A stretch of DNA of 64,000 bases from Ramlibacter henchirensis. GTDB lineage: Bacteria > Pseudomonadota > Gammaproteobacteria > Burkholderiales > Burkholderiaceae_C. Below are positions 40,719 through 61,081 of this stretch, piece by piece. Below the pieces are notes generated by a model. That model saw only the letters and a program-made list of their open reading frames with translations, was not told the origin of the DNA and made no database searches. The position numbers were made by a program, and so were the translations under genes. How positions within the stretch are numbered: the stretch's first letter is position 1; every line of letters begins with the position of its first letter. The DNA lies in the NCBI RefSeq assembly GCF_004682015.1, contig NZ_SMLM01000001.1, forward strand, positions 248,001 to 312,000, given 5' to 3'.

Positions 40719-40744
40719 CGTTCTATGACACAGAACGGCGTTTC
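40719..40744 (-). promoter_or_regulatory. 26-bp IclR-type operator A (PQQ dehydrogenase promoter)
   Basis: Read on the minus strand it contains AAACGCCGTTCTG then AGAACG, matching sites B-E over 26 aligned bases: an AACG/CGTT inverted pair plus a third AACG in direct orientation. A TACGAT -10-like hexamer ends just upstream (40749-40754), so a bound protein would cover the start of transcription. Confidence 0.7.
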
Positions 40745-40823
40745 AAAATCGTACCTCAGCCCGGAGTGGCGCGAGGGTGGGTGGAATCCCTGATGACGGG
40801 ATCGGTCCGATGGTGCGAGACTT

Positions 40824-40849
40824 AGAACGCCGTTCTGTAGTGCGAAACG
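40824..40849 (+). promoter_or_regulatory. 26-bp IclR-type operator B (orphan TRAP binding protein promoter)
   Basis: This is the most symmetrical copy: GAACGCCGTTC is a perfect inverted repeat, followed by GAAACG in the same position as the third half-site of the other copies. It shares the 282-bp divergent region with operator A and lies 115 bases before the TTG start of the binding-protein gene. Confidence 0.72.
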
Positions 40850-40890
40850 CCCCTCCGGGGTTCTTCCCGGTGCACGCGCAGGGGGTGGAG

Positions 40891-40919
40891 GACGCCGCGC
40901 CCGCGGCCGTCGGTTTTTT
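40891..40919 (+). terminator. Attenuator-like hairpin in leader of the orphan TRAP gene
   Basis: GACGCCGC pairs with GCGGCCGTC (one bulged base, short loop) and is followed after two bases by six Ts (40914-40919). It lies between operator B and the ribosome site at 40951, so it could stop transcripts before the gene. The stem is imperfect, hence modest confidence. Confidence 0.45.
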
Positions 40920-40964
40920 CTGGGACCAGGAGCCGCGCGCGGCTCGAAACGAAGGAGTCTTGAC

Positions 40965-41975
40965 TTGAAGATCTTGAAAACTGCGCTGGCCGTGACGCTG
41001 GCCGCTACCGTGTTCGCGCTGCCGGCGGCCGCGCAGGAAATCCAGGAGCGCACCATCCGCTTCGGCCACCTCAACAACACCGACCACCCGATGAGCATGG
41101 GGGCGCGCAAGTTCGCCGAGCTGGTGGGGGCCAAGAGCGGCGGCAAGCTGAAGGTCCAGGAGTTCCCGTCCAACCAGCTGGGCAACGAGATGCAGCAGCA
41201 GTCCGCGCTGCAGGGCGGCGTGCAGGAGATGACCGCTCCCGCGCCCACCTCGCTGGCCGGCATCGTCAAGGAATTCGGCCTGCTCGACTTCCCGTTCACG
41301 GTGACCAGCTTCAAGCAGGCCGATGAACTGCTGGATGGCCCGCTGGGCAAGGCCCTGCTGGCCAAGCTGCCCGAGAAGGGCCTGGTCGGCCTGACCTTCT
41401 TCGACCTGGGTTTCCGCAACGTCACCAACAGCCGCCGCCCGATCACCAAGGCCGAGGACCTGCAGGGCGTGAAGCTGCGCGTGATCCCGAACCCGGTGTT
41501 CCTGGACACGTTCAGGACGTTCGGCGCGAACCCGGTCCCGATGCCCTTCGCCGAGCTCTATGGCGCGCTGGAGAGCAAGGCCGTCGACGGCCAGGAGAAC
41601 CCCTTCTCCGTGATCCTGTCGAACAAGTTCTTCGAAGTGCAGAAGTACCTGAGCGCGACGAATCACGTCTACGCCGCCAACATCATCCTGGTGAGCAAGA
41701 AGTTCTGGGACCGCCTCTCGCCCGCCGAACAGAAGATCCTGCAGGACTCCGCGATCGAAGCGCGCGACTACCAGCGCAAGGTCAGCCGCGAGATGGCCGG
41801 CAAGGCGCTGTCGGAACTGAAGGCCAAGGGCATGGAGATCAACGAGCTGGCGCCGGCGGAAGTCGCGAAGATGCGTCAGATGGTCAAGCCCATCCACGAC
41901 AAGTTCGCGAACGAGTACGACCCCGCGCTCGTGAAGACCTTCCGCTCCGAGCTGGAGCGCGTGCAAAAGCTCTGA
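40965..41975 (+). CDS. Orphan TRAP transporter substrate-binding protein DctP
   Basis: This 336-residue periplasmic protein has a Sec signal ending at AAAQ and the DctP core FRNVTNSRRPI, LRVIPNP and AVDGQENP. The TTG start has GAAGGAG seven bases upstream, so it is the real start. No permease genes adjoin it; the nearest are dctM/dctQ at 35828-37656, whose own binding protein is clearly related. It sits under operator B, opposite the PQQ dehydrogenase, which suggests it captures the oxidised product. Confidence 0.9.
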   Translation: MKILKTALAVTLAATVFALPAAAQEIQERTIRFGHLNNTDHPMSMGARKFAELVGAKSGGKLKVQEFPSNQLGNEMQQQSALQGGVQEMTAPAPTSLAGIVKEFGLLDFPFTVTSFKQADELLDGPLGKALLAKLPEKGLVGLTFFDLGFRNVTNSRRPITKAEDLQGVKLRVIPNPVFLDTFRTFGANPVPMPFAELYGALESKAVDGQENPFSVILSNKFFEVQKYLSATNHVYAANIILVSKKFWDRLSPAEQKILQDSAIEARDYQRKVSREMAGKALSELKAKGMEINELAPAEVAKMRQMVKPIHDKFANEYDPALVKTFRSELERVQKL

Positions 41976-41988
41976 TGACCGGGCAGCC

Positions 41989-42010: not shown

Positions 42011-42012
42011 GC

Positions 42013-42801
42013 TCAGCCGGCGTTCAACCTCGACCTGGAATGATTTCCCGTCGAAGCGCCCCTTGGCGGGGCCTTGCCCTTGCCGGCAGGCTTGTTCCAG
42101 CCGGCGAATTCGGGCGCGTCGGGATTGCCGCCGAAGGTGCGGGTGAGCGCCTGCGCATGCTTGAACAGCGCCGGCACGATCCTTTTTTCCCCCAGCGCCT
42201 CGATCCGGTACAGCGGGCCCGAAACGTTCAACGCGCCGACCAGGCGGTTGTCGTGGCCGAACACAGGCGCGGCGAAAGCCGCGATCTCCGGATCGCGCTC
42301 GCCGAAGGACGACGCGAACATCGCATCGCGGATCCGCTCATAGCGCTCGCCGCGCACGCCGCTGAAGGCGCGCAGCAGGTGGCCGGCGGCCCCGTGCGTC
42401 AGCGGCAGTCGGTCGCCTTCGTGGACGGAGTCGCGAACGGTGCGCGCGGCGTCCACCCGGTGCAGCACGATCCGGTGCTCGCCGTCGACGATGTAGAAGG
42501 AAGCGCCTTCCTGCAGTTCCTCGACGATGCTGCGCAGCACGGGCGGCACGATCTCGGAGGTGCGGAAGTGCCGCTGGTACAGCGAGCCGAGGTACAGGAC
42601 CTTGGAGCCGAGCCGGTAGCTGCCGTCCTCGGTGCGCAGGACGTAGCCGAAGCGTTCCAGCGATTTCGCAAGGCGCAACACCGTGCTCTTGTACAGCCCG
42701 GTGCGCTTGGAGAGCTCCGCGAGCGTGATCTTCTCGTCGGTCAGCGCGTCCAGGATCGACAGGGCCCGATCCACCGCGGCGACACCGCCTTCATCGCTCA
42801 T
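42013..42801 (-). CDS. IclR-family transcriptional regulator 1
   Basis: This 262-residue regulator has a winged helix with recognition helix LYKSTVLRL (residues 36-44) followed by SLERFGYVLR and an IclR effector domain (about 85-245). The second IclR at 60241 has the same nine residues. IclR proteins such as PobR/PcaU often bind three half-sites arranged as an inverted pair plus a direct repeat, which fits operator C in its divergent region. It is transcribed away from the aldehyde dehydrogenase gene, which it likely controls. Confidence 0.9.
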   Translation of the reverse strand: MSDEGGVAAVDRALSILDALTDEKITLAELSKRTGLYKSTVLRLAKSLERFGYVLRTEDGSYRLGSKVLYLGSLYQRHFRTSEIVPPVLRSIVEELQEGASFYIVDGEHRIVLHRVDAARTVRDSVHEGDRLPLTHGAAGHLLRAFSGVRGERYERIRDAMFASSFGERDPEIAAFAAPVFGHDNRLVGALNVSGPLYRIEALGEKRIVPALFKHAQALTRTFGGNPDAPEFAGWNKPAGKGKAPPRGASTGNHSRSRLNAG

Positions 42802-42922
42802 AAGTTCACCTCCATCAGCGAGTTTATCAGCGCTCTTCCGGGCGCTTTTCCGCGGCGGAAAGGACCTTACGCAGGCGCCATCCGCAGGCCCCGATCCGGG
42901 CTAACCCGAATCTACGTTTTTT

Positions 42923-42948
42923 AGAACACTGTTATGCTGTACGGAACG
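42923..42948 (+). promoter_or_regulatory. 26-bp IclR-type operator C (aldehyde dehydrogenase/T2SS operon promoter)
   Basis: This copy reads AGAACACTGTTATG then ACGGAACG and is the most divergent, but it aligns with the others without gaps. TACGTT (42913-42918) ends four bases before it and could be the -10. It lies in the divergent gap between iclR 1 and the aldehyde dehydrogenase gene. Confidence 0.62.
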
Positions 42949-43011
42949 AAAGGGCCGCAGGTACGCCGCGGTTCCGCGGTCCCGCCCAGCCCCATTCCTC
43001 TCGCTCCAGCC

Positions 43012-44493
43012 ATGGCCAGCCTCACACGTTTCGACCATTTCATCGACGGCGCCGGCGTGCCGCCCGCCTCGGGCGAGTACCTCCCGAGCGAGGACCCGTT
43101 CACCGGCGAGGTCTGGGCCGAAGTGGCGCGCGGAAACGCCGCCGACGCGGAGCGCGCCGTCGAAGCGGCGTCCCGCGCCTTCGAGTCGGGGCCGTGGCCC
43201 GCCCTCACGCCCTCCGAGCGGGGCCGCCTGCTGTGGAAGCTGGGCGATGTGATCACCGCGAACGCCGACCGGCTGGCCGCTGTCGAACAGCGTGACAACG
43301 GCAAGCTGGCGGCCGAAGTCGTCGCGCAGGTTCGCTACATGGCGGACTACTTCCGCTACTACGCCGGCCTGGCCGACAAGGTGCAGAGCTCGGTGATCCC
43401 GACCGACAAGAAGGGCGTGTTCGCGTACACCAGGTACGAGGCCAAGGGCGTGGTGGCCATCATCACGCCCTGGAACTCGCCGCTCACGCTCACCAGCTGG
43501 AAGCTCGCACCTGCCCTTGCGGCCGGCTGCACCGCCGTCGTCAAGCCGTCCGAGTTCACCTCGGGCTCGATGGTGGAGTTCGCCAGGCTGTTCGAGCAGG
43601 CGGGCTTTCCGAAAGGCGTGGTCAACGTGGTGACCGGCCTCGGCCCGGAAGTCGGCGAGGCGCTCGTGCTGCATCCCAAGGTGCCCCACATCGGCTTCAC
43701 CGGGGGCACCGCCGCGGGCAAGAAGATCTACGAGATGGCGGCGCGCAACCTCAAGACCGTCACGCTGGAGCTGGGCGGCAAGTCGCCCAACATCGTCTTC
43801 GACGACGCCGACCTCGACCAGGCCGTCAAGGGCGTGGTCTCCGGCATCTTCGCGGCGTCGGGCCAGAGCTGCCAGGCCGGCTCGCGCCTGCTGGTGCAGG
43901 AGAGCATCCACGACAAGTTCATCGCCAGGCTGCTGGAGTTCATGCGCGGCGTGAAGCTGGGCGATCCCAGGCAGGCCGACACGCAGGTCGGCCCCATCGC
44001 CACGCGGCCGCAGTTCGAGAAGATCATGGGCTACATCGAGATCGCGCAGCGCGAAGGCGCACGGTGCGTGCTCGGTGGCCGCAGCCGCCCTGATCTCGGC
44101 GCCGGCCAGTTCGTCGAGCCGACCATCCTCACCGGCGTGCGCAACGACATGCGCATAGCCCAGGAGGAGGTGTTCGGGCCGGTGCTGGCCGTCATTCCGT
44201 TCAAGGACGAGGCCGACGCCATCCGCATCGGCAACGACACGCTGTTCGGCCTGGCTGCCGCGGTGTGGACGCGCGACCTGCGCCGCGCGATGCTGATGAC
44301 GGACAAGCTCAAGGCCGGCACGGTCTGGGTCAACAACTACCGCGCCACCAGCTTCACGTCGCCATTCGGCGGCTACAAGCAATCGGGCATCGGCCGCGAG
44401 TCCGGCACCGAGACGATCAAGGAATACCTGGACACCAAGTGCGTGTGGATGTCGTCGGACCTGGACGTGCCCAATCCGTTCATCCGCCGCTGA
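43012..44493 (+). CDS. NAD(P)-dependent aldehyde dehydrogenase
   Basis: This 493-residue enzyme has the ALDH catalytic residues Glu253 (LELGGKSPN) and Cys287 (GQSCQAG), and ITPWNSPL for cofactor binding. It would oxidise an aldehyde to the acid, plausibly the product of the PQQ alcohol dehydrogenase or of the ThDP lyase in the same operon. The start at 43012 was taken because the ATG at 42934 lies inside operator C. It heads a string of genes running to 57620 with gaps of at most 41 bases. Confidence 0.92.
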   Translation: MASLTRFDHFIDGAGVPPASGEYLPSEDPFTGEVWAEVARGNAADAERAVEAASRAFESGPWPALTPSERGRLLWKLGDVITANADRLAAVEQRDNGKLAAEVVAQVRYMADYFRYYAGLADKVQSSVIPTDKKGVFAYTRYEAKGVVAIITPWNSPLTLTSWKLAPALAAGCTAVVKPSEFTSGSMVEFARLFEQAGFPKGVVNVVTGLGPEVGEALVLHPKVPHIGFTGGTAAGKKIYEMAARNLKTVTLELGGKSPNIVFDDADLDQAVKGVVSGIFAASGQSCQAGSRLLVQESIHDKFIARLLEFMRGVKLGDPRQADTQVGPIATRPQFEKIMGYIEIAQREGARCVLGGRSRPDLGAGQFVEPTILTGVRNDMRIAQEEVFGPVLAVIPFKDEADAIRIGNDTLFGLAAAVWTRDLRRAMLMTDKLKAGTVWVNNYRATSFTSPFGGYKQSGIGRESGTETIKEYLDTKCVWMSSDLDVPNPFIRR

Positions 44494-44521
44494 TCGATAA
44501 ACAAGGGAAGGGTCGCCAACA

Positions 44522-45727
44522 ATGAACAACAAGGCGCTCGAGGGGATCCGCGTCCTCGATCTCACCAACGTGCTGGCAGGTCCGCTCTGCGCGTACCAGC
44601 TGGCGCTGCTCGGTGCGGACGTGATCAAGGTGGAGGTTCCGGACTCCGGCGACCTCGCCCGCCAGCTGGGCAGCGACCCGGCTCTGAACGCAGCACGGAT
44701 GGGCGCGTCGTTCCTGGCGCAGAACGGCGGCAAGCGGTCCATCACGCTGAACCTGAAGCTCGAAGCGGGGCAGACCGTGCTGCGGCGGCTGGTCGCTTCG
44801 GCCGACGTGCTGGTCGAGAACTTCCGGCCGGGCGTCATGGAACGCCTGGGCCTGTCATACGAGGAGCTGCGCAAGGAGAACCCTTCGCTCGTCTACTGCG
44901 CGATCACCGGCTTCGGCCAGGAAGGCCCGCTGCGCGACGCCCCGGCCTACGACCAGATCATCCAGGGCCTGTCCGGAATGATGAGCGTCACCGGCGACGA
45001 GAAATGCGCACCACTGCGCGCCGGCTATCCGGTCGCGGACACGATCAGCGGGATCATGGGCGCCTTCGCGATCACGGCCGCGCTGGTGCGCCGCCAGCGC
45101 ACGGAGGAGGGCGCCTTCATCGACGTCTCCATGCTCGACTCGGCACTGGTTTCGATGGGCTGGGTGATCTCCAACTACCTGATCGCGGGCACGACGCCGA
45201 AGCCGCACGGCAACGACAACTTCACCGCCGCGCCTTCCGGGACGTTCCGCACCGGCGAAGGCCTGCTGAACATCGCCGCCAACAAGCAGGAGCAGTTCGA
45301 GAAGCTCGCGCGGCTGGTCGGGCGCCCGGAGCTGATCGAGGACCCGCGTTTCGCCAAGCGCGAGAGCCGCAAGCAGAACCGCGCCGCGCTGAACGCGGAA
45401 CTGGAATCGGCGCTCGCGGACCACCCGGCTTCGCACTGGGAAAAGCTGCTGGTGTTCCACGGCGTTCCCGCCGGCGCCGTGCTCAGCCTGCCGCAGGCGC
45501 TCGGCCTGGAGCAGGTGGCGCTGCGCGGACTGCTGCAGGAGTTCGAACAGGTGCCCGGCGCGGAGCGCTCCATCAAGGTCGCGCGCACCGGGTTCAAGCT
45601 GTCCAACGGCGATCCGGATGCGCATGTTCCGCCACCGCGCCTGGGCGAGCACACCGACGAAGTGCTGGCGGGCCTGGGCTACACCGCGGCGGATATCCGC
45701 TCGCTCAAGGAGCAGGGCGCGCTATGA
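44522..45727 (+). CDS. Class III CoA-transferase (CaiB/BaiF/Frc family)
   Basis: This 401-residue enzyme begins LEGIRVLDLTNVLAGPLC and carries the catalytic Asp144 in PAYDQIIQG, which forms an acyl-anhydride during CoA transfer. It would activate a carboxylic acid by moving CoA from succinyl- or acetyl-CoA. It overlaps the citryl-CoA-lyase-like gene by 4 bp, so the CoA ester formed is probably that enzyme's substrate. The acid is unknown. Confidence 0.9.
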   Translation: MNNKALEGIRVLDLTNVLAGPLCAYQLALLGADVIKVEVPDSGDLARQLGSDPALNAARMGASFLAQNGGKRSITLNLKLEAGQTVLRRLVASADVLVENFRPGVMERLGLSYEELRKENPSLVYCAITGFGQEGPLRDAPAYDQIIQGLSGMMSVTGDEKCAPLRAGYPVADTISGIMGAFAITAALVRRQRTEEGAFIDVSMLDSALVSMGWVISNYLIAGTTPKPHGNDNFTAAPSGTFRTGEGLLNIAANKQEQFEKLARLVGRPELIEDPRFAKRESRKQNRAALNAELESALADHPASHWEKLLVFHGVPAGAVLSLPQALGLEQVALRGLLQEFEQVPGAERSIKVARTGFKLSNGDPDAHVPPPRLGEHTDEVLAGLGYTAADIRSLKEQGAL

Positions 45728-46551
45728 GCAAGACGCCCGAGCAGATCGCCCGCGAGGCCTCGGCCTGGTGGACCACGGAGATCGTGGACATCCAGCCGGG
45801 CCGCATCGGCATCCGCGGCTACCCGATCGAGCAGCTGATCGGCCGCCTCCGCTTTCCGGAAATGATCTGGCTCATGCTGCGCGGCGAGACCCCGCAGCGG
45901 GAGCAGGCCGACCTGCTCGAAGCAGCGCTGGTCGCCGCCGTGGACCATGGGCCGCATGCGCCCTCGATCGCGATCTCGCGCATGGCCGTCACCTGCGGGC
46001 TGCCGATCAACGGCGCGATGGCGTCCGCCATCAACGCGCTGGACGACATTCATGGCGGCGCGGGCGAGCAGTGCATGGAGCTGATGCAGCAGGTGGCTGC
46101 GGCCGTCGAGGGCCGCGAACCGACGCTCGAACTCGTCGAGCGCGTGCTGGACGAGTACACCGCGGCCCACGGCAAGATCGTTCCCGGCTTCGGCCATCGC
46201 TGGCACGGCACCGACCCGCGCGCCGTGCGGCTGCTGCAGCTGGTGCGCGACGCCCAGGCGCGTGGCGTCGTGGACGGCCGATTCGCGACGATCGGCACCC
46301 TGGTCGAGGAAGCGCTCGGCCGCCGCAAGGGCACGCGCATCCCGATGAACATCGACGGCGCCACGGCCGTCATCTACCTCGAACTCGGTTTCCCGGCCGG
46401 CCTGGGCCGGGGCCTCTTCATCCTCTCCCGCTCCGTCGGCATCCTGGCCCACGCCTGGGAGCAGAAGCAGCAGGGCGGGCGCATCAAGGGGCCGATGCCG
46501 CCCAGCGTCCCCTACACCTACACGGGGCCGCAAGCGCGCGACCTGCGCTAG
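45724..46551 (+). CDS. Citrate synthase-like citryl-CoA lyase family enzyme
   Basis: This 275-residue protein is much shorter than citrate synthase (about 430) but keeps all three catalytic residues: His110 in DIHGGAG, His158 in GFGHRWHG and Asp211 in NIDGAT. That matches the citryl-CoA lyase form, which cleaves a CoA ester to acetyl-CoA (or homologue) and an oxo acid. With the CoA-transferase overlapping upstream, it suggests activation and retro-Claisen cleavage of a 3-hydroxy-3-carboxy acid. The natural substrate is not known. Confidence 0.82.
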   Translation: MSKTPEQIAREASAWWTTEIVDIQPGRIGIRGYPIEQLIGRLRFPEMIWLMLRGETPQREQADLLEAALVAAVDHGPHAPSIAISRMAVTCGLPINGAMASAINALDDIHGGAGEQCMELMQQVAAAVEGREPTLELVERVLDEYTAAHGKIVPGFGHRWHGTDPRAVRLLQLVRDAQARGVVDGRFATIGTLVEEALGRRKGTRIPMNIDGATAVIYLELGFPAGLGRGLFILSRSVGILAHAWEQKQQGGRIKGPMPPSVPYTYTGPQARDLR

Positions 46552-46592
46552 CGCGAAGGCCCGCATCCCCAACCTTCCAGACAGGATCTCTC

Positions 46593-48353
46593 ATGAAAGA
46601 ACTGATCTCCAAGCAGCTCGTCAGGTACCTGGAGCGTCGCGGCGTCGAGCACGTGTTCGGCCTGTGCGGCCACACCAACATCGCCGTGCTAGCGGCCATG
46701 TCGCAGAGCAAGCTCAACTTCGTCAACACGCGGCACGAGCAGATCGCGGCGCACATCGCCGACGGCTACGCGCGCGCGAAGAAGAAGACCGCGGTGATCC
46801 TGTCGCACCTGGGCCCCGGGCTGACCAATGCTTCCACCGGTGTGGCCAACGCGGCGCTGGATTCCATTCCCGTGGTCGTGATCGCCGGCGACGTGCCCAG
46901 CCACTACTACGGCAAGCACCCTCACCAGGAGGTGAACCTGCATTCCGACGCGGCGCAGTCGGAGATCTACCGCCCGTTCGTCAAGCGCGTGTGGCGCGTC
47001 GAGCGGCCGGACCTGTTCCCCGAGATCCTGCAGAAGGCCTTCCAGCTGGCCGAGAGCGGCCGGCCCGGCCCGGTGCTGGTCTCGGTGCCCATGGACATCT
47101 TCTCGATGGAGATCGACACCGCGCTGTTCGACCGCCTCTCGCACCACACCACGCAGCTGCAGAAGCCCTCGATCGACGACGAGACGGCCGAGAAGATCGT
47201 GCGCAAGCTGGTGGAAGCGCGCAACCCCGTCGTGTACGCCGGCGGCGGCGTGATCCTGGCCGATGCCGCCGACGAACTGCGCCAGCTGGTCGACCACCTC
47301 TCACTGCCGGTGGCGCACAGCCTGATGGGCAAGGGCGTGCTGCCCGACGACCACCAGCTGACCCTGGGCATGACCGGCTTCTGGGGCACGAAGTTCGTGA
47401 ACGAGAAGTGCCGCACCGCCGACTGGATCTTCGGCGTGGGCACGCGCTTCGCCGAGGCCGACTGCAGCTCCTGGGAGGCCGAGTACACGTTCAGCATGCC
47501 GCCGAGCAAGCTGATCCACATCGACATCGACCCGGCCGAGATCGGACGCAACTTCCCGGTGGAGATCGGCGTGGTCAGCGACCTGAAGCAGGCGCTGATC
47601 GTCCTGAATCGCGTCGCGCGCCGCCTGTTCCCGAACGGCCGCACGAACGATGCCCTGCGTGATCAGATCGGCGCGTACCGCCGCGATTTCCAGAAGGGCA
47701 ACGCCGCGCACATCGCGAACGAGGCGTATCCGATGCGCCCCGAGCGCATCCTGTCGACCGTGCGCGAGGTGCTGCCGCGCGACGCGATCATCACCACCGA
47801 CGTGGGCTGGAACAAGAACGGGGTGGGCCAGCAGTTCCCGATCTACACGCCCGGCAGCATCCTCACGCCCGGCGGCTTCGCCACCATGGGCTTCGGCGCG
47901 CCGGCCGCCATCGGCGCCAAGCTGGCCTGCCCCGACCGCGTCGTCGTGGCTTTGGTGGGCGACGGCGGCTTCGGCCAGAACCCCGCGGTGCTCGCCACCG
48001 CCGCCGAGCAGGACGTCGCGGTGATCTGGATCGTGATGAACAACAACGCCTACGGAACCATCGCCGGCCTGGAGATGGCGCACTACGGCACGGCGTTCGG
48101 CACGGTCTTCCGCCGCGGCGGCGAGCCCTATCACGTCGACTTCGCCGCGATCGCCCGCGCCTACGGCGTCGACGGCGTGAAGATCGGCTCGGCCGCGGAC
48201 TTCAAGCCCGCTCTGGAAAAAGCCATCGCGTCGCGCAAGGCCTGCGTGATCGACGTGGCCATGATGAACGAGCCGGTGCCCACCGCCGGCCACTGGAACA
48301 TCAATGACATCTATTCGCCCGGCCGCAAGGTCTCGCACGTGGCCGTCGCGTAA
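46593..48353 (+). CDS. Thiamine-diphosphate-dependent enzyme (acetolactate synthase-like superfamily)
   Basis: This 586-residue protein has the three-domain ThDP layout: catalytic Glu49 in NTRHEQIAAHIADGYARA, a central domain, and the ThDP/metal motif GDGGFGQNP ending in MNNNAYG. Relatives include acetolactate synthase, oxalyl-CoA decarboxylase and 2-hydroxyacyl-CoA lyase. Next to a class III CoA-transferase, a CoA-lyase or decarboxylase role is attractive but not shown by sequence. Its stop is only 4 bases before the gspG start. Confidence 0.82.
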   Translation: MKELISKQLVRYLERRGVEHVFGLCGHTNIAVLAAMSQSKLNFVNTRHEQIAAHIADGYARAKKKTAVILSHLGPGLTNASTGVANAALDSIPVVVIAGDVPSHYYGKHPHQEVNLHSDAAQSEIYRPFVKRVWRVERPDLFPEILQKAFQLAESGRPGPVLVSVPMDIFSMEIDTALFDRLSHHTTQLQKPSIDDETAEKIVRKLVEARNPVVYAGGGVILADAADELRQLVDHLSLPVAHSLMGKGVLPDDHQLTLGMTGFWGTKFVNEKCRTADWIFGVGTRFAEADCSSWEAEYTFSMPPSKLIHIDIDPAEIGRNFPVEIGVVSDLKQALIVLNRVARRLFPNGRTNDALRDQIGAYRRDFQKGNAAHIANEAYPMRPERILSTVREVLPRDAIITTDVGWNKNGVGQQFPIYTPGSILTPGGFATMGFGAPAAIGAKLACPDRVVVALVGDGGFGQNPAVLATAAEQDVAVIWIVMNNNAYGTIAGLEMAHYGTAFGTVFRRGGEPYHVDFAAIARAYGVDGVKIGSAADFKPALEKAIASRKACVIDVAMMNEPVPTAGHWNINDIYSPGRKVSHVAVA

Positions 48354-48357
48354 CGGC

Positions 48358-48765: not shown

Positions 48766-48766
48766 C

Positions 48767-53447: not shown

Positions 53448-53448
53448 G

Positions 53449-54033: not shown

Positions 54034-56270
54034 CCGCGCAACAACCGACCCCGGAAGCACGGCGCCGAGGCCGCCTGGCCCTGCTGGCGCCCTGGCTGCT
54101 GCTGGCCGCCTGCGCCACCCAGCAGCCTGACCTGCGCGAAGGCCAGCAGCTGATCGCTGCCGGCCGCTTCCAGGAAGGACTGGCCCGGCTCGAAGCGGCC
54201 GCCAAGGCGCAGCCGCGCGATCCGCAGGCGTACACCACCTACATCACGCAGCGTGCCGCGATCGTGAACGCGCAGGTGCGGGACGGCGACGCGCTCAGGG
54301 TCGCAGGCGACCTGCGCGGGGCCGAGGCGCAGTACCGGGCGGCGCTGCAGCTGGACCCGACGTCGGCCCTGGCGCAAGCCGGCCTGGAAGCGACCGCCCG
54401 GGCTGCGCGAAGCGACGCGAGCATGATCGAGGCGGAGCAGGCGCTGCGCGCAGGCGACGTGGCCAAGGCGGAGCGGCTCACGCGCTCGGTGCTTTCCGCG
54501 GAGTCCAACCATCCTCGCGCCCGCGCCATGATGAAGGCCGTGGCGGAACGGCGGGCGGCCGCGGAGACAGTGCCGCCCAGGCTGCGATCGGCACTGCAAC
54601 GGCAGATCTCGCTGGACCTGCGCGATGCTCCCCTGCGTTCGATCCTGAACATCATCGCCAGCAACGGCGAGCTCAATTTCGTCTTCGACCGCGACGTCAA
54701 GACCGACCAGCGCGCCAGCATCTTCGTGCGCGACATGAGCCTGGACGACATCCTGCGCATCCTGCTGCTGACCAACCAGCTCGAACGCAAGGTGCTCAAC
54801 GAGAACTCGATCCTGGTCTACCCCGCGACGCAGGCCAAGCAGCGCGAATACCAGGAGCTGGTCACCCGCAGCTTCTATCTGGCGAATTCCGACCCGAAGC
54901 AGACCGCCGCGATGATCCGCGCGCTGGTGAAGACGCGCGACCTGTTCGTCGACGAGAAGCTCAACCTGATCATCATGCGCGACACGCCGGACGCGGTGCG
55001 GCTGGCAGAGCAGCTGGTCGCGACGCAGGACCTGGGCGAGCCCGAGGTGATGCTGGAGCTGGAGGTGCTCGAGGTGGCGTCCAGCCTGGTCCAGGAACTC
55101 GGCGTGCGTTATCCGGAGCAGGTGAGCTTCTTCTCGCCGGATGCGAGCGGTGCGTTCCCGGCGCTCGTGGAGCTGCGGCGCTCCAGCGGGCTGCGGGCGC
55201 TGGTGCCGAACCCGGTGCTGCTGCTCACGCTGCGGCAGCAGGACGGGACGACCAACCTGCTGGCCAACCCGCGCATCCGCGTGAAGAACCGCGAGAAGGC
55301 CAAGGTTCACATCGGCGAACGCGTGCCCGTCATCACGACCACGTCGACCGCCAACGTCGGCGTCTCGTCGTCGGTGAACTACCTCGAGACCGGCCTCAAG
55401 CTGGACGTGGAGCCGAACATCTTCCTGGAGGACGAGGTCGCCATCAAGGTGCAGCTGGAGGTGTCCAACATCCTCGAACAGCTGAACGTGTCCGGCACCG
55501 TCGCGTACCGGCTCGGCACGCGCAACGCCGCGACCACCTTGCGCCTGCGCGATGGCGAGACGCAGGTGCTGGCGGGCCTGATCAACAGCGAGGACCGCAA
55601 GTCTTTCACCAAGGTTCCTTACGCGGGCGACCTGCCGGTCCTGGGCCGGCTGTTCCGCAACGACGACGAGCGCGGCAGCAAGACCGAGATCGTCCTGCTG
55701 CTCACGCCGCGCGTGGTGCGAAACCTGGCCCGGCCCGACACGGTCGCGCCGATGTTCTCCTCTGGGACGGAGGCTGCTCCGGGCGCCGCGCCGCTGCGTC
55801 TGGCCAGCGGCGGTCGCGTGGGACTCACGCCCGACGCCTCTGCGGCCGGCACGGCGGGTCCCGCCCCAGCCGCCGCAGCGCAGGCGCCGGCGCAGCCCGC
55901 CGTGCCCCTCAACCTCGTGGCGCCTGCGCAGGCGCCCGTCGGGTCGGAGTTCAGCGTCACGCTGTCGCTGCCCACGGGCAATGCGCCGGTCACGGCCAGC
56001 GTGCAACTCACGTTCGACCCGGCCGTGCTGAACCTGGTGGGCATCAGCCCCGCTTCTCCGGGCAGCCCGCCCGCGCCGGACCGCGGCACCGTGGCGGTGG
56101 AGGTGGCATCCGCCGGCATCCCGGGCACGCCGACCACGCCGACGCAGCTGCGGTTCCGCGTGGTCGGGAAGGAGCCGACCAACACCGAGATCGGGATCGA
56201 GGTGGTCTCGGCGAGCCGGCCGGTGCAGGCGCCGCCGTCGTCGCAGCCCGTGAGCATCGTGGGGCGGTAG
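54030..56270 (+). CDS. gspD: Secretin (GspD/PilQ-like) lipoprotein with N-terminal TPR-like part and C-terminal cohesin domain
   Basis: This 746-residue outer-membrane channel has a lipobox (LLLAACAT), a TPR-like region (about 35-165), an STN-type domain (near 185-240), N domains and the secretin core (roughly 350-560, with VPYAGDLPVLGRLF and TEIVLLLTPRVV). A Pro/Ala linker leads to a C-terminal cohesin-like beta domain (about 620-746). The TTG start follows GGAG. Cohesin domains bind partners, so it may hold cargo or wall-bound proteins; that is inferred. Confidence 0.88.
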   Translation: MTAQQPTPEARRRGRLALLAPWLLLAACATQQPDLREGQQLIAAGRFQEGLARLEAAAKAQPRDPQAYTTYITQRAAIVNAQVRDGDALRVAGDLRGAEAQYRAALQLDPTSALAQAGLEATARAARSDASMIEAEQALRAGDVAKAERLTRSVLSAESNHPRARAMMKAVAERRAAAETVPPRLRSALQRQISLDLRDAPLRSILNIIASNGELNFVFDRDVKTDQRASIFVRDMSLDDILRILLLTNQLERKVLNENSILVYPATQAKQREYQELVTRSFYLANSDPKQTAAMIRALVKTRDLFVDEKLNLIIMRDTPDAVRLAEQLVATQDLGEPEVMLELEVLEVASSLVQELGVRYPEQVSFFSPDASGAFPALVELRRSSGLRALVPNPVLLLTLRQQDGTTNLLANPRIRVKNREKAKVHIGERVPVITTTSTANVGVSSSVNYLETGLKLDVEPNIFLEDEVAIKVQLEVSNILEQLNVSGTVAYRLGTRNAATTLRLRDGETQVLAGLINSEDRKSFTKVPYAGDLPVLGRLFRNDDERGSKTEIVLLLTPRVVRNLARPDTVAPMFSSGTEAAPGAAPLRLASGGRVGLTPDASAAGTAGPAPAAAAQAPAQPAVPLNLVAPAQAPVGSEFSVTLSLPTGNAPVTASVQLTFDPAVLNLVGISPASPGSPPAPDRGTVAVEVASAGIPGTPTTPTQLRFRVVGKEPTNTEIGIEVVSASRPVQAPPSSQPVSIVGR

Positions 56271-56272
56271 GC

Positions 56273-56758
56273 ATGCGGCGTTCGCGCACCGGCCTCGGGG
56301 GTTTCTCGCTGATCGAGATGGTCATCACCGTGGCCATCATCGGCGTGCTGGCCTCGATCGCGCTGCCGCTCGGTCAGCTCACGGTTCAGCGCGCCAGGGA
56401 ACACGAGCTGCGGCGCGCACTGCGCGAGATCCGCACGGCGATCGACGAGTACAAGCGCGCCGCCGACCAGGGGCGCGTGGCCCGCGCGGCGGATGCCTCC
56501 GGCTATCCGCCTTCCCTGGACGTGCTGGTGGATGGCGTGCCGAACGCGAAGGATCCCGCCAAGCGCCCGATCTACTTCCTGCGCCGCCTGCCGCGCGACC
56601 CCTTCCACGAAGGCGAGGCGTCGCGCGCCTCCGAGACGTGGGGATTGCGCAGCTACGACTCTCCGCCGGACAACCCGCGCCCGGGCAAGGACGTGTTCGA
56701 CGTCCATTCGCGCTCCGCCGCCGTCGGCATCGGCGGCGTGCCCTACCGGGAGTGGTGA
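56273..56758 (+). CDS. Type II pseudopilin (GspG/H-like)
   Basis: This 161-residue protein has a leader ending in Gly before FSLIEMVITVAIIGVLASIA, a PilD-type site with Glu at +5, followed by an amphipathic helix (RAREHELRRALREIRTAID). The globular part contains DPFHEGEA and WGLRSY. It starts 2 bases after the secretin gene and should form part of the pseudopilus. Confidence 0.82.
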   Translation: MRRSRTGLGGFSLIEMVITVAIIGVLASIALPLGQLTVQRAREHELRRALREIRTAIDEYKRAADQGRVARAADASGYPPSLDVLVDGVPNAKDPAKRPIYFLRRLPRDPFHEGEASRASETWGLRSYDSPPDNPRPGKDVFDVHSRSAAVGIGGVPYREW

Positions 56759-56759
56759 C

Positions 56760-57137
56760 GTGCGCCGCCGCGGTTTCACGTTGATCGAACTGCTGATCGT
56801 CCTGTCGATCATGGCCGTGCTGTTGACCATCGCGCTGCCGCGCTACTTCCAGTCGGTCGACCGTTCGCGCGAGGTCGCCCTCGCGCAATCGCTGATGGTG
56901 GTGCGCGATGCCATCGACAAGTACTACTCGGACCGCGGGCGCTACCCCGACAGCCTGTCCGATCTCGTGCAGGCCCGGTACCTGCGCGCGCTTCCGGTGG
57001 ACCCCGTCACGGGCAACGCCGATGCGTGGGTGGTCGTGCCTCCGCCGGCGGGGACGATCGGCGGCGGTTCCCTGTACGACCTGCGCAGCGGTGCACCCGG
57101 CCAGTCCACCGAAGGCCGCGCCTTCTCGGAGTTCTGA
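56760..57137 (+). CDS. Type II pseudopilin
   Basis: This 125-residue protein begins at a GTG directly after the previous gene and has leader VRRRG before FTLIELLIVLSIMAVLLTIA, with Glu at +5. The rest (YYSDRGRYPDSLSDLVQARY) is GspG-like. The longer open frame upstream overlaps the neighbour and is rejected. Confidence 0.82.
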   Translation: MRRRGFTLIELLIVLSIMAVLLTIALPRYFQSVDRSREVALAQSLMVVRDAIDKYYSDRGRYPDSLSDLVQARYLRALPVDPVTGNADAWVVVPPPAGTIGGGSLYDLRSGAPGQSTEGRAFSEF

Positions 57138-57140
57138 GGG

Positions 57141-57620
57141 ATGCGGCAGAAGGGCTTCACCTACATCGGGCTGCTGCTGCTGGTGGCGATGACCACGAGT
57201 GCGCTGGCCGTCGCGGCCTCGCTCTGGAGCCTGGAAAGCCGGCGCGAGAAGGAAGCCGACCTGCTCTTCATCGGCGCCGAGTTCAGGCAGGCGATCGCGT
57301 CGTTCCGCGAGCGCACGCCCGCGGGGCAGGCGCCGCGCTTTCCGCAGCGGCTGGAGGAGCTCGTCGACGATCGCCGCTGGCCCACGACGCGGCGGCACCT
57401 GCGGCAGGTCTACGTCGACCCGATGACGGGCTCGCGCGACTGGGGCCTGGTCACCGCGCCCGGCGGCGGCATCGTGGGCGTCTACAGCCGTTCCGAAGCG
57501 GCGCCGGTCAAGCGCGCCCGCTTTCCGGAGGACTACGAGGGCTTCGACGATGCGCCGGGTTACCAGCAATGGCGCTTCGTCTACTCGAGCCCCGGCGGCC
57601 CGGCGCAGGAGAAGAACTGA
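57141..57620 (+). CDS. Atypical pseudopilin-like protein
   Basis: This 159-residue protein has MRQKG before FTYIGLLLLVAMTTSALAVA, a PilD-type site lacking the usual Glu at +5 (Ile-Gly instead). That trait is known for tip pseudopilins such as GspK. It is the last gene of the secretion block, and ends about 45 bases before operator D. Confidence 0.7.
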   Translation: MRQKGFTYIGLLLLVAMTTSALAVAASLWSLESRREKEADLLFIGAEFRQAIASFRERTPAGQAPRFPQRLEELVDDRRWPTTRRHLRQVYVDPMTGSRDWGLVTAPGGGIVGVYSRSEAAPVKRARFPEDYEGFDDAPGYQQWRFVYSSPGGPAQEKN

Positions 57621-57665
57621 GACGGCCATGGGGATCACCCTGATGAGGAGCGGAGTGCGCGAGCC

Positions 57666-57700
57666 TATACTTTTGGAATGCCGTTCTGCAGTACGCAACG
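57666..57700 (+). promoter_or_regulatory. Promoter -10 and 26-bp IclR-type operator D (ABC transporter promoter)
   Basis: TATACT (57666-57671) is followed after three bases by the operator (57675-57700), which reads GGAATGCCGTTCTG then ACGCAACG. It separates the pseudopilin gene from the ABC transporter and would control the ABC-DUF3299-iclR 2 unit. Confidence 0.7.
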
Positions 57701-57737
57701 GGCTTCCGGACCCACGGCGATCCGCAGGATGCAACCG

Positions 57738-58433
57738 GTGAAAGCGATCGAAGCGCGGGACCTCCGCTTCTCCTGGCCGGGGCAGCCGGAGTGCTTGAGC
57801 CTTCCGGCCCTGGACCTCGACGCCGGGAGCCATCTCTTCGTGCACGGCCCGAGCGGCAGCGGCAAGAGCACGCTGCTGTCCCTCCTGGCCGGCGTGCTCA
57901 CGCCGCAGGCCGGCAGTGTTTCGGTGCTCGGCCAATCCTGGACCGGATTGCGCCGCCCCGCGCGCGACCGTTTCCGCGCCGACCACATCGGCTACATCTT
58001 CCAGCAGTTCAACCTGCTGCCGTACCTGCCGGTGGTGGGCAATGTGACGCTGCCTTGCAAGCTGTCGCGCCGGCGCGCTGCGCGGGCCGAGGCCGCCGGC
58101 GGCGTGCTGGTCACCGGGCAGCTGCTGCTGCGCTCGCTGGGCATCGGGCCGGAGCTCTGGGATCGGCCCGCCGCGCAACTCTCGGTCGGCCAGCAGCAGC
58201 GCGTGGCGGCGGCGCGCGCCCTGATCGGGCAACCCGAACTCGTCATCGCCGACGAGCCCACGTCCGCGCTGGACGCGCAGCGGCGCGAGGGGTTCATGCA
58301 CCTGCTGCTGGCCGCCTGCGGCCGCGCGGGCAGCGCGCTGGTGTTCGTCAGCCATGACGAGCGACTGGCGACGCACTTCGCCCGATCCGTGTCGCTGGCG
58401 CGAGAGGATGCGGCGCAGGAGCACGTGGCGTGA
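57738..58433 (+). CDS. ABC transporter ATP-binding protein, LolD/MacB-like
   Basis: This 231-residue ATPase has Walker A GPSGSGKST, signature QLSVGQQQR and Walker B ELVIADEPTSALD. The GTG start has AGGA eight bases upstream; an ATG at 57729 is the alternative, and an ATG inside operator D is rejected. It overlaps the permease gene by 4 bp. LolD/MacB-type transporters move lipoproteins, peptides or act as mechanotransducers rather than importing small solutes. Confidence 0.88.
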   Translation: MKAIEARDLRFSWPGQPECLSLPALDLDAGSHLFVHGPSGSGKSTLLSLLAGVLTPQAGSVSVLGQSWTGLRRPARDRFRADHIGYIFQQFNLLPYLPVVGNVTLPCKLSRRRAARAEAAGGVLVTGQLLLRSLGIGPELWDRPAAQLSVGQQQRVAAARALIGQPELVIADEPTSALDAQRREGFMHLLLAACGRAGSALVFVSHDERLATHFARSVSLAREDAAQEHVA

Positions 58434-59680
58434 GGGGCATCCTCTCCATTGCGTGGCGCAGTGCCTGGAACCGGCGCTTCGTGCTGCTGCTCGTCGTGCT
58501 GTCGATCGCGTTCTCCACCTTCCTCGTGATGACGCTGGAGCGCGTGCGGGCGGATGTGCGGGAGTCCTTCTCGCAATCGGTGTCCGGGACGGACCTGATC
58601 GTCGGGCCGCGCGGCGGCCGGCTCGAACTGCTGCTGTACTCCGTGTTCCGCTGGGGCTCCGCCCCCGGCACGATGCAGTGGAGCAGCGCCACGAAGATCG
58701 GCGCTCATCGCAGCGTGGCGTGGTGGGTGCCGCTGTCCCTGGGCGACTCGCACCGCGGCTTTCCCGTGCTGGCCACCACGCCTTCGTACTTCGAGCATTT
58801 CCGCTTCGGCCGGCGCGAGCGGCTGCAGTTCGAGCAGGGCGGCGGGTTCGGGTCGGACTTCGACGCGGTGCTCGGCGCCGACGTGGCGCAGGCCCTGGGC
58901 TATGAACCCGGTGAGCGCATCGTGCTCAGCCACGGCACGGGAGAGGCCGATTTCAACGACCACGCTGACAAGCCGTTCACCGTCGTGGGCGTCCTGCGCC
59001 GGACCGGAACGCCGGTGGACCGCACCATCCACATCGGGCTGGACGGCATGGACGCCGTCCACGAGCACTTCGCGGGAGGGGTGGCGCTTCCGGCCTCGCA
59101 CAACGCCGCGCATGCCGACGACGAGGACCGCACCATCACGGCCGTGCTCGTGGGCCTGAAGAACCGCGCCGCGGTGTTCTCGGTCCAGCGGGACATCCAG
59201 GATTTCCGCGGCGAACCCTTGATGGCCGTGCTGCCCGGCGTGGTGCTCGACGAACTCTGGCAGGCGGTGGGAAGCACCGAGCAGGTCCTGCGCTGGATGA
59301 CCGCCTTCGTGGCCGCAGTGAGCCTCGCAGGCCTGGTGGCGGTGGTGCTCACGGGGCTCGAACAGCGCCGACGCGAACTCGCCATCCTGCGGGCCGTGGG
59401 CGCAGGGCCGGGCCACGTGATGCTGCTGCTTTGCGTCGAGGGCGTGCTGATCACGGCCGCCGGGGCGTTCCTCGGCCTTGCCGCGCACTGGCTCGCCATC
59501 GGCCTGCTCGACGACTGGCTTCGGGTCAGCTGGGGCGTGCAGGTCGCGCTCACCGCACCGGGCGCGCACGAACTCACCCTGATCGGTTCCATCCTGGCGT
59601 GCGGGGTCCTCGCCAGCCTGCTTCCCGGCTTGCGCGCCTACAGGATCTCGCTGGTCGACGGTCTTTCACCGCGGGTTTGA
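58430..59680 (+). CDS. ABC transporter permease, FtsX/MacB-like
   Basis: This 416-residue protein has the MacB layout: one N-terminal membrane segment, a large periplasmic domain (about 45-270), then three membrane segments with AGLVAVVLTGLEQRRRELAI and RAVGAGPGHV, an FtsX hallmark. A GTG start overlaps the ATPase gene. It pairs with the ATPase upstream and a DUF3299 protein downstream. Confidence 0.87.
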   Translation: MRGILSIAWRSAWNRRFVLLLVVLSIAFSTFLVMTLERVRADVRESFSQSVSGTDLIVGPRGGRLELLLYSVFRWGSAPGTMQWSSATKIGAHRSVAWWVPLSLGDSHRGFPVLATTPSYFEHFRFGRRERLQFEQGGGFGSDFDAVLGADVAQALGYEPGERIVLSHGTGEADFNDHADKPFTVVGVLRRTGTPVDRTIHIGLDGMDAVHEHFAGGVALPASHNAAHADDEDRTITAVLVGLKNRAAVFSVQRDIQDFRGEPLMAVLPGVVLDELWQAVGSTEQVLRWMTAFVAAVSLAGLVAVVLTGLEQRRRELAILRAVGAGPGHVMLLLCVEGVLITAAGAFLGLAAHWLAIGLLDDWLRVSWGVQVALTAPGAHELTLIGSILACGVLASLLPGLRAYRISLVDGLSPRV

Positions 59681-59682
59681 AC

Positions 59683-60213
59683 ATGAGATCACGGGTCATC
59701 GCAGGGTTGCTGTTCGCGTTCGCGTGGTTCGCGACGCCGCTGTTCGCGGCGGCGCCCGCCTTCCAGGAAATCGGGTGGCTCGCGCTGGTGCCCAGGGACT
59801 GGAAGCCGCAGGAGAAGCTGGATCGCAAGAAGGCCGAGTCGCTCAAGGACGGCGACGCGCTGGCGCAGGAAATGATGAAGGAGCTGCGCGAGGTGCTCGA
59901 CTCCGCGCCGACCGTCCCATCGCTGAACGGCACGCGCGTGCGCATGCCCGGCTTCGTCGTGCCGCTCGACACGTCGCGCGACGGGTTCAGCGAGTTCCTG
60001 CTCGTGCCCTACCACGGCGCCTGCATCCACACGCCCCCGCCTCCGGCCAACCAGATCGTCCACGTCGTGTCCAGGCAGCCGGTGAAGGGCTTCCAGAGCA
60101 TGAGTGCTGTGTGGGTGTCCGGAACCATGCAGGTGGTGCGCAAGGACACCGGCATGGGCGTCAGCGGCTACGCGCTGGAGCTCGCGGCGATCGAGCCGTA
60201 CCGCCCGAAATGA
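59683..60213 (+). CDS. DUF3299 exported protein
   Basis: This 176-residue protein has a signal peptide ending near FAAAP and a DUF3299 domain with ACIHTPPPPANQIV and MPGFVVPLD as fixed parts. The family has no settled function. It often follows a LolD/FtsX-type ABC pair, including, from memory, in zinc-responsive loci of other bacteria. The Cys/His pair could bind metal. It begins 2 bases after the permease stop. Confidence 0.8.
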   Translation: MRSRVIAGLLFAFAWFATPLFAAAPAFQEIGWLALVPRDWKPQEKLDRKKAESLKDGDALAQEMMKELREVLDSAPTVPSLNGTRVRMPGFVVPLDTSRDGFSEFLLVPYHGACIHTPPPPANQIVHVVSRQPVKGFQSMSAVWVSGTMQVVRKDTGMGVSGYALELAAIEPYRPK

Positions 60214-60240
60214 GCCTGCTGCCGACGATCGGATAGAGCC

Positions 60241-60975
60241 ATGCCCCGACGCGCCGCGTTTCCCTCCATCGCCGACGAACATGCCGCGCCCGGCGGCGCT
60301 GCCGCGGTCGATCGCGCCGTGACGCTGCTGTCCCTGTTCGCGGGCGGCAGCGGCCCGTACACGCTCAGCGCGCTGGCGGAGCAGACCAAGCTCTACAAGA
60401 GCACGGTGCTGCGCCTGCTGGCCTCGCTGGAGCATTCCGGGCTGGTGCTGCGGCAGGCCGACGGGCGCTACGCGTTGGGGCCGATGATCGCCCGGCTGTA
60501 TGCCTCGTATGCGGCCTCGTTCTCGCTGGAATCGGTGGTGATGCCGGTACTGCGGCAACTGGTGGAGCGGACGACCGAGAGCGCGGCCTTCCACGTGAGG
60601 CAGGGCGAGCACCGCCTCTGCCTGTACCGCGTCGATTCGACGCAGCCGGTGCGGGACCACATCAAGGTGGGCGACCTGATGCCGCTCACGCAGGGCGCCG
60701 GCGGCCGGGTACTCATGGCATTCGCGGGCACCCCGGGCGCGATGTACGAGCGGATCCGCCGCGACCATCTCGCAGTGCTGTGCGGCGATCGCGTGCCGGA
60801 ACTGGCGGGCGTGTCCTCGCCGGTGTTCGATGCCGCGGGAATGCTGGTCGGCGCGGTGACGCTGACCATGCCGAAGGAGCGCCTGTCGCCCTCGCATGGC
60901 CCCCATGTGGTGCGTTCCGCCGCCGACCTGACCGCGAAGCTTGGCGGGCGCTTCCCGCGCACCGTGACCGAATAA
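60241..60975 (+). CDS. IclR-family transcriptional regulator 2
   Basis: This 244-residue regulator carries recognition helix LYKSTVLRL (residues 51-59), identical to regulator 1, and the same downstream pattern SLE..G.VLR..DG.Y.LG. The effector domain follows. It lies 27 bases after the DUF3299 gene in the unit controlled by operator D, so it may regulate itself. It likely binds the same 26-bp sites as regulator 1. Confidence 0.9.
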   Translation: MPRRAAFPSIADEHAAPGGAAAVDRAVTLLSLFAGGSGPYTLSALAEQTKLYKSTVLRLLASLEHSGLVLRQADGRYALGPMIARLYASYAASFSLESVVMPVLRQLVERTTESAAFHVRQGEHRLCLYRVDSTQPVRDHIKVGDLMPLTQGAGGRVLMAFAGTPGAMYERIRRDHLAVLCGDRVPELAGVSSPVFDAAGMLVGAVTLTMPKERLSPSHGPHVVRSAADLTAKLGGRFPRTVTE

Positions 60976-61031
60976 CTCATCCGCAGCTTCGTTGGGGGTT
61001 TGTCCCTACGTTTTGGCGCGGAGCGCCTTCC

Positions 61032-61081
61032 TATACTGCCCCTCGAGCTAAAAACAAAACGCCGTTTCGTACAGCAGAACG
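61032..61081 (+). promoter_or_regulatory. Promoter -10 and 26-bp IclR-type operator E (ThuA-like gene promoter)
   Basis: TATACT (61032-61037) precedes the operator (61056-61081), which reads AAAACGCCGTTTCG then AGCAGAACG. A second possible -10, TAAAAA, ends one base before the operator. It lies 65 bases upstream of the ThuA-like gene. Confidence 0.68.

Follow-up and report, generated by a model that had tools for sequence, protein, structure and literature searches.

A family of three-box IclR-type operators and a probable regulon around a PQQ dehydrogenase in Ramlibacter henchirensis

Three-box binding motifs have been described for 32 of 181 orthologous groups of IclR-family regulators, with PcaU, PobR and HmgR cited as examples and with the suggestion of alternative dimerization; aldehyde dehydrogenases and DctPQM transporters are among the regulated genes (Suvorova and Gelfand 2021, PMC8222616). 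Table 1 of that study includes the Comamonas regulators TphR and IphR, and neither Ramlibacter nor Variovorax is named in its main text. Another precedent comes from Pseudomonas, where AgmR (ErbR/PedR1) activates both ped genes and the pqq operon (PMC12997753, in the sections available), so that coupling of a pyrroloquinoline quinone (PQQ) enzyme to its cofactor is already known with another regulator class. Here we analyse a stretch of 64,000 nucleotides ("the window", C1:248001-312000) from the 4.79 Mb genome of Ramlibacter henchirensis, in which five copies of a 26-bp operator precede the genes of a PQQ dehydrogenase, transporters, enzymes, an IclR-type regulator and a ThuA-like protein, and relate them to a sixth copy before pqqA outside the window.

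The operators of R. henchirensis resemble the three-box motifs of PMC8222616 in having three alternating half-sites that form two overlapping palindromes, and in lying beside iclR genes of one orthologous group; one pair of boxes is similar to the group 2 consensus and the overlapping pair to that of group 1. Of the 17 positions of the group 1 consensus the six sites match 12-15 (random sequence reaches 13 at its 99.9th percentile), and of the 12 positions of group 2 they match 8-10 (99.9th percentile, 8); the pqqA site stays below 13 for group 1, and there are differences in the flanking letters of the consensus. Compared with the three-box systems in the main text of PMC8222616, the gene content is different (PQQ dehydrogenase, pqqA, type II secretion-like genes, ThuA-like and ELWxxDGT proteins), as is the presence, in one regulon, of two paralogues whose helix stretches are equal. 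The likeness to the ped cluster, as far as the available sections of PMC12997753 describe it, lies in having one regulator for both genes of PQQ alcohol dehydrogenases and for a pqq operon that stands apart; AgmR, however, is a LuxR-type activator, whereas the common element here is an IclR-type operator. The regulon had been called undescribed in an earlier note on this DNA: its operator architecture was already on record in PMC8222616, but we recognised no description of the regulon itself in the open-access literature, judged mostly from listings. The present analysis adds a site before pqqA, recurrence of the operators in further genera, their likely use in common by two paralogues and a candidate activator box.

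Six operators in the genome

The earlier note had rightly spotted an operator, which is real and conserved, and a small regulon. Its five 26-mers lie at the coordinates and on the strands that it gave, and they align without gaps, with 11 of the 26 columns invariant:

40719..40744, minus: operator 1, GAAACGCCGTTCTGTGTCATAGAACG, before the PQQ dehydrogenase gene; centre 49.5 bases 5' of the ATG at 40682
40824..40849, plus: operator 2, AGAACGCCGTTCTGTAGTGCGAAACG, before the gene of a DctP solute-binding protein
42923..42948, plus: operator 3, AGAACACTGTTATGCTGTACGGAACG, between the divergent iclR1 and aldehyde dehydrogenase operon
57675..57700, plus: operator 4, GGAATGCCGTTCTGCAGTACGCAACG, before the unit of ATP-binding cassette (ABC) transporter, DUF3299 protein and iclR2
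61056..61081, plus: operator 5, AAAACGCCGTTTCGTACAGCAGAACG, before the ThuA-like gene; centre 77.5 bases 5' of the ATG at 61146

The boxes NNAACG / CGTTNN / NNAACG are found in all six sites of the genome with small changes only. The core AACGCCGTT, which was said to occur at each site exactly or in a close form, is exact in three of the five (PQQ dehydrogenase, DctP and ThuA) and reads AACACTGTT at the aldehyde dehydrogenase operon and AATGCCGTT at the ABC unit; the third AACG begins 20 bases after the first, not about 18 as claimed.

With a matrix built from the five sites, these same sites are the top five of 127,950 position-strand combinations in the window, next come three overlaps of these sites on the opposite strand (26.3, 21.8 and 19.2), after which scores drop to 11.7. 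When each site in turn was left out of the matrix, operators 1 to 5 ranked 8th, 5th, 8th, 5th and 6th in the window, and the number of matches expected genome-wide at their scores, with independent bases of the genome's own G+C content, was 0.32, 0.00006, 0.27, 0.006 and 0.33. Since these expectations reach 0.33, not every site is remarkable alone; five within 20 kb are. Similarly, the majority consensus with up to three mismatches retrieves exactly these five in the window, against a mean of 0.17 and a maximum of 2 in shuffled sequence (0 of 100 shuffles reach 5). By contrast, the short core AACGCCGTT-N8-AACG with two mismatches gave no signal, with 70 matches in the genome versus 97 in a reversed control; this pattern was dropped, as it is commoner in the control and its spacing misfits the true third box. 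The full three-box arrangement is therefore the informative part.

Three profiles were used for wider scans, built from the five window sites (R1), from 17 sites including that before pqqA (R2) and from 25 sites, some of them from the scanned genomes (R3). In the genome of R. henchirensis R1 returned the five window sites and one overlap. R2, at E<=10, returned eight rows, of which six are the window sites and that of pqqA and two are overlaps on the opposite strand; weaker sites may have been missed, because 150 of 1235 first-look candidates were scored. The motif is not scattered over the genome, so that the refutation which the earlier note had proposed, matches at random positions, failed.

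The sixth operator, GAAACGGTGTTCTGTCGCACAGAACA, lies at C1:315791-315816 (L099:4792-4817) on the minus strand, 3.8 kb to the right of the window's end, and was first revealed by a matrix scan of the right flank before it appeared among the R2 results. A set of five in the window was thus borne out, whereas the whole-genome set is six, and the view that five were the only ones in the genome was abandoned after these two scans. The edge of the sixth site is about 55 bases 5' of pqqA (MKWCKPEFEDFRFGFEITMYISAR), which is followed by genes with beta-lactamase fold (PqqB-like), TENA/PQQC, PqqD and radical SAM/SPASM domains, a pqqABCDE-like set. The DNA upstream of the site repeats part of the PQQ dehydrogenase promoter, with CCCGTCATCAGGGATTCCAC followed by TACTAT (pqqA) or TACGAT (PQQ dehydrogenase) three bases before the operator. 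It is this place that makes the site credible; its score alone is not decisive. A further weak match in the flank (L099:10099, 18.3) was discarded, being below 12 with the 17-site matrix and absent from the genome list.

Regulators and recurrence in related genomes

The two regulators of the cluster, IclR1 and IclR2, pass the Pfam cut-offs for both domains of the family (HTH_IclR, 45.5 and 47.9 bits, cut-off 22; IclR_C, 56.5 and 55.5 bits, cut-off 24) and are 43% identical over 223 residues. They have in common the stretch LYKSTVLRL, which from knowledge of the IclR family we take to be the recognition helix and which is present in 13 of 18 aligned rows; three rows differ at one place (Variovorax and, by our genome codes, G022 and G032), and the relative in G472 reads LHKSTIIRL. 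Because of this same stretch both proteins are likely binders of the operators. The earlier note had likened the sites to the inverted-plus-direct triple half-site of PobR/PcaU-type IclR regulators: the operator is indeed of the IclR three-box kind, and the PcaR/PcaU/PobR model (TIGR02431) is the best or second-best NCBIfam model for both IclR1 and IclR2, but their 91.9 and 74.8 bits lie below its cut-off of 284.75.

The scan of related genomes that the earlier note had suggested showed that the operators recur together with orthologues of IclR1 in other genera, before the same genes. Such recurrence is seen in the congener Ramlibacter cellulosilyticus and, in other genera, in Schlegelella koreensis, G645, G564 and G620, which together with R. 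henchirensis provide the six best-comparable clusters (we take our G011 to be R. cellulosilyticus and G828 to be S. koreensis). The operator precedes the aldehyde dehydrogenase operon, a gene of a tripartite ATP-independent periplasmic (TRAP) transporter and the ThuA gene in 6 of 6 clusters each, and the PQQ dehydrogenase-like gene in 5 of 6, the site in G620 being weak; operator 3 is identical in sequence in R. cellulosilyticus. In S. koreensis two sites lie before PQQ dehydrogenase-like genes (46-47% identity) on other contigs; these, and the ThuA sites of G564 and G620, come from the profile scan alone, the genes not having been sought. No homologues of the type II secretion-like genes were found downstream of the thiamine diphosphate (TPP) enzyme gene in the fetched DNA of S. 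koreensis.

Beyond these clusters the picture is patchier. R3 gave matches in 11 of 13 chosen genomes at E<=3. Within the DNA fetched from G472, G522 and G582, whose IclR1 relatives are 54-55% identical, the only site found precedes the aldehyde dehydrogenase gene. In front of this gene G410 has weak sites that overlap; Variovorax has a site there too, and another some 600 bases 5' of a ThuA-like gene, and G750 has no site of score >=15 in its 20 kb. Profile matches in G750 (C9), G472 (C37), G522 (C169) and G410 (C24:15450), examined by tblastn only, were left uncounted, as was the match C97:4070 of G564, which lies inside that genome's PQQ dehydrogenase match. A search for related loci with IclR1 gave three from named organisms, R. 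cellulosilyticus, Variovorax sp. J2P1-59 and S. koreensis. Matches to IclR1 were obtained from 24 of the 61 relatives at E<=1e-30, many of about 40% identity and likely paralogues; within the family, 9 genomes of 399 gave one at 1e-65, and within the order 2 of 399 at 1e-60 (R. henchirensis counted each time). With so few matches at strict E-values in order and family, close relatives are sparse.

The IclR2 side has its own distribution. Relatives of IclR1 and IclR2 are divergent neighbours in G564 and G620, and in genus members without the cluster the relatives of IclR2 keep an adjoining site, from strong (G022, 34.4) to weak (G029, 14.7), with TTGACA upstream of the sites in G022, G005 and G033. 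A third paralogue of R. henchirensis (G000:C2:605723-606463) belongs to the same subgroup, has the helix stretch MHKTTALRL and lies beside a related but different motif, GAAACGGCATTGTACTGTGCGCAACC. Genes similar to it, with similar motifs, occur in many members of the genus.

Promoter elements and proposed regulation

The promoters of the window contain the following elements, all -10-like hexamers being predictions:

40748..40753, minus: -10-like TACGAT, PQQ dehydrogenase promoter
40779..40790, minus: palindrome GGGATTCCACCC, imperfect (6-base gap), between the divergent PQQ dehydrogenase and DctP promoters
42898..42907, plus: palindrome GGGCTAACCC, candidate activator site, aldehyde dehydrogenase promoter
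42933..42938, plus: -10-like TATGCT inside operator 3
57631..57640, plus: palindrome GGGATCACCC, candidate activator site, ABC promoter
57666..57671, plus: -10-like TATACT, ABC promoter
60996..61006, plus: palindrome GGGTTTGTCCC, candidate activator site, ThuA promoter
61032..61037, plus: -10-like TATACT, ThuA promoter, 18 bases before operator 5

According to the earlier note, four of the five sites begin 0-4 bases after a -10-like hexamer. This is clear for two: a hexamer that matches in at least 4 of 6 positions ends three bases before the site only at the PQQ dehydrogenase gene (TACGAT) and the ABC unit (TATACT), and not at the aldehyde dehydrogenase, ThuA and DctP genes. At the aldehyde dehydrogenase operon TACGTT (3 of 6), the earlier choice, is possible, and TATGCT within the operator fits the conserved spacing better; the DctP gene has GAGACT (3 of 6) only and hence no accepted -10. 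None of the six promoters of R. henchirensis has even a 4-of-6 match to a -35 at 15-19 bases from the accepted -10 (DctP having none), and a promoter scan of 40650-43050 found no promoter. Relative to the -10, the operator lies just downstream (PQQ dehydrogenase, pqqA and ABC), across it (aldehyde dehydrogenase) or 18 bases after it (ThuA), and therefore repression, by occlusion or as a roadblock, fits better than upstream activation.

A de novo search upstream of 16 promoters (without DctP of R. henchirensis, whose DNA is shared with the PQQ dehydrogenase promoter) yielded a palindrome close to TCAGGG-N4-CCCTGA, with a summed information of 190.8, whereas 15 mononucleotide shuffles, which ignore shared ancestry, averaged 132.5 and reached 139.6 at most; the sequence context of GGGATTCCACCC recurs before pqqA. 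The distance from the palindrome's centre to the operator varies (about 40, 20 or 54 bases), while that to the first base of the -10-like hexamer, 30-31 bases, hardly does. With one mismatch allowed, a pair of GGG-N4/5-CCC and -10 at 29.5-31.5 bases is present in 13 of 15 promoters (DctP and pqqA left out; the misses are the ThuA promoters of S. koreensis and Variovorax), as compared with a mean of 0.12 and a maximum of 2 in 500 shuffles, or 0.69 and 4 when shuffling was confined to the upstream part. If the -10 starts at -12, the palindrome would be centred near -42, which is the position of a class II activator. This arrangement suggests a candidate activator near -42 and IclR repression over the start; it fits the promoters of R. 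henchirensis well and those of relatives less well. In S. koreensis the promoters of both PQQ dehydrogenase-like genes (L148 and L167, contigs 34 and 37) carry GGGTTTnTnCCTACTCACAAG, a palindrome-like sequence that lies about 60-70 bases 5' of the operators, further upstream than is seen elsewhere.

Taken together, we consider it probable that the sites are IclR operators of one regulon that includes pqqABCDE and has an additional activator input. That one operator family links enzymes, transport, secretion and secreted proteins, as the earlier note proposed, is supported. On this proposal, which is drawn from sequence, the operators, each of three boxes in alternating direction, would be read by IclR proteins encoded in the cluster, most likely by both IclR1 and IclR2. 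The bound protein would cover the -10 and the early transcribed region and most likely block transcription, until an effector derived from the substrate frees it and six units, the five of the window and pqqABCDE, are switched on. These would provide TRAP uptake, extracellular alcohol oxidation by the quinoprotein with its cofactor, aldehyde and coenzyme A (CoA) metabolism, probably type II secretion, an ABC transporter and the ThuA/ELWxxDGT proteins. In many of the promoters a candidate activator would read GGG-N4/5-CCC near -42, resulting in activator-and-not-repressor control. More tentatively, the two IclR paralogues might be sensors with equal DNA-reading helices and diverged effector domains that share every operator, the activator being a third input; two signals, or a mixed tetramer, would then jointly decide on quinoprotein, PQQ, uptake, secretion and secreted proteins.

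If true, this would be a compact regulon that brings the secreted ThuA-like and ELWxxDGT proteins into one response with a quinoprotein, the synthesis of PQQ and type II secretion-like genes, and it would offer a lead to the substrate. The idea put forward in PMC8222616, alternative dimerization at three-box sites, would also find a natural example in two paralogues that share a helix stretch, and the kept spacing between palindrome and -10 points to a candidate activator.

Several observations weigh against parts of this proposal. There is no clear operator before the PQQ dehydrogenase gene of G564, and R3 gave no match at E<=3 in G009 and G582, where weaker matrix matches adjoin IclR genes or the aldehyde dehydrogenase gene. 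The pqqA site was missed by R1, and with the five-site matrix chance alone would yield 0.05 (own G+C) to 0.45 (equal bases) matches of its score in a genome. Moreover, among 13 pqqB loci of the genus (PqqB was found in 12 of 59 genomes, R. henchirensis included, and some loci are cut by contig ends) a site of score >=10 is present only at that of R. henchirensis and at none of the 12 others. The preference for repression over activation depends on predicted -10 boxes. As to the palindrome, the spacing range was chosen after the data had been seen, and the DctP and pqqA promoters of R. henchirensis fail the strict test, so that 13 of all 17 promoters pass, nine with perfect pairs. In a later set of 16 promoters, among which those of G564 and G620 are alike, only four pass (shuffle mean 0.50, maximum 3), and five have both a palindrome-like match (at 28-34 bases) and a -35, which means that the palindrome is not a simple replacement of the latter.

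The alternative that the matches are due to chance or a dispersed repeat without regulatory meaning could invoke the short core, no commoner than its reversed control; we give it almost no credence, given that the full-length sites are far above chance in the window and confined to few places in the genome scan, and that they recur before orthologous genes in other genera. A reading in which only one IclR protein owns the operators, the other binding elsewhere or near its own gene and the equal helices reflecting common descent, is unlikely in our view, though it deserves to be taken seriously. Genus members without the IclR1 cluster have relatives of IclR2 that keep a site beside their own gene, and no IclR2 orthologue was found within 20 kb around IclR1 in G645 and S. 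koreensis, whole genomes not having been searched. Against a single owner stand the equal helix stretches in 13 of 18 rows, the one form of the sites beside both genes, and the adjoining iclR genes in G564 and G620. PobR and PcaU are activators, and the regulators studied here could likewise act from their operators in activation, a view to which the lack of a recognisable -35 in the promoters of R. henchirensis lends some colour. The IclR family does include activators (PMC8222616, main text). We nevertheless find such a role distinctly improbable, as the operators lie over or downstream of the best-supported -10 boxes and the usual place of an activator is already taken by the palindrome.

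Alternatively, the GGG-N4/5-CCC palindrome could be no activator site but simply a reflection of G+C-rich upstream DNA and common descent, which would leave the IclR operator as the only functional element; this is somewhat doubtful but has substance. The promoters of R. henchirensis and R. cellulosilyticus are related by descent, the later promoters are weaker, and the pattern palindrome-N25-TATACT with up to three mismatches occurs 27 times in the window against 20 by chance, 9 of 100 shuffles reaching 27. With at most one mismatch, however, the window holds three matches, all of them operator promoters (ABC, aldehyde dehydrogenase and ThuA), and it is the distance to the -10 that is preserved, the one to the operator being variable. 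The later set, too, contains three perfect pairs in 16 (shuffle mean 0.04, maximum 1 in 300), and seven promoters pass in a wider range of 29.5-33 (mean 0.74, maximum 4). Over the whole of that set, nine of the 16 have a -35 with at least 5 of 6 matches, four of these without palindrome (three ThuA promoters and G522); two have the palindrome only and five neither element. A LuxR-type gene near the cluster was looked for, but all 22 GerE matches of the genome fall outside C1:248001-330000.

Genes of the cluster and its surroundings

The genes around the operators, with operon limits as predicted, are:

34809..38501, minus: downstream of the PQQ dehydrogenase gene and probably in one operon with it, an unknown gene (37644-38501), then TRAP DctQ, DctM and DctP
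38556..40682, minus: PQQ dehydrogenase, exported-looking, no CxxCH haem motif
40965..41975, plus: DctP family TRAP solute-binding protein
42013..42801, minus: iclR1, IclR-family regulator
43012..48353, plus: operon of four enzyme genes starting with aldehyde dehydrogenase
44522-45727, plus: CoA-transferase III
~45730-46551, plus: citryl-CoA lyase-like protein, between CoA-transferase and TPP enzyme
46569-48353, plus: TPP enzyme
48304..57620, plus: type II secretion-like genes (pseudopilins, T2SSF, T2SSE, PilN/PilO-like, secretin)
57729..60213, plus: ABC ATPase, FtsX/MacB-type permease, DUF3299 protein
60241..60975, plus: iclR2, second IclR-family regulator
61146..62105, plus: ThuA-like protein, signal-peptide-like start
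62185..63615, plus: ELWxxDGT repeat protein, likely in the ThuA unit

The PQQ dehydrogenase of the window is the sole PF01011 protein found in the genome (two pieces in one frame; PF01011 was the model searched). No operator of their own was found for the type II secretion-like genes, for which transcription from operator 3 is assumed. The open reading frame of the ABC ATPase opens at 57678, within the operator, 57729 being the likelier start. The aldehyde dehydrogenase, the CoA-transferase and the TPP enzyme stay below the NCBIfam cut-offs shown and do not point to a substrate; the only cut-off passed is that of the citryl-CoA lyase model NF004864 (431.6 vs 261). The citryl-CoA lyase-like protein is a possible clue to the substrate.

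To the left, at 31645-32472 and 32544-33446 on the minus strand, two adjoining genes resemble the two halves of the 3-dehydroshikimate dehydratase QuiC; G750 and G410 have similar pairs in the neighbourhood of their IclR1 relatives. Beyond the pqq genes on the right (L099:6783-9042), a gene of an extracytoplasmic function (ECF) type sigma factor on the plus strand adjoins that of a trypsin-like protease on the minus strand.

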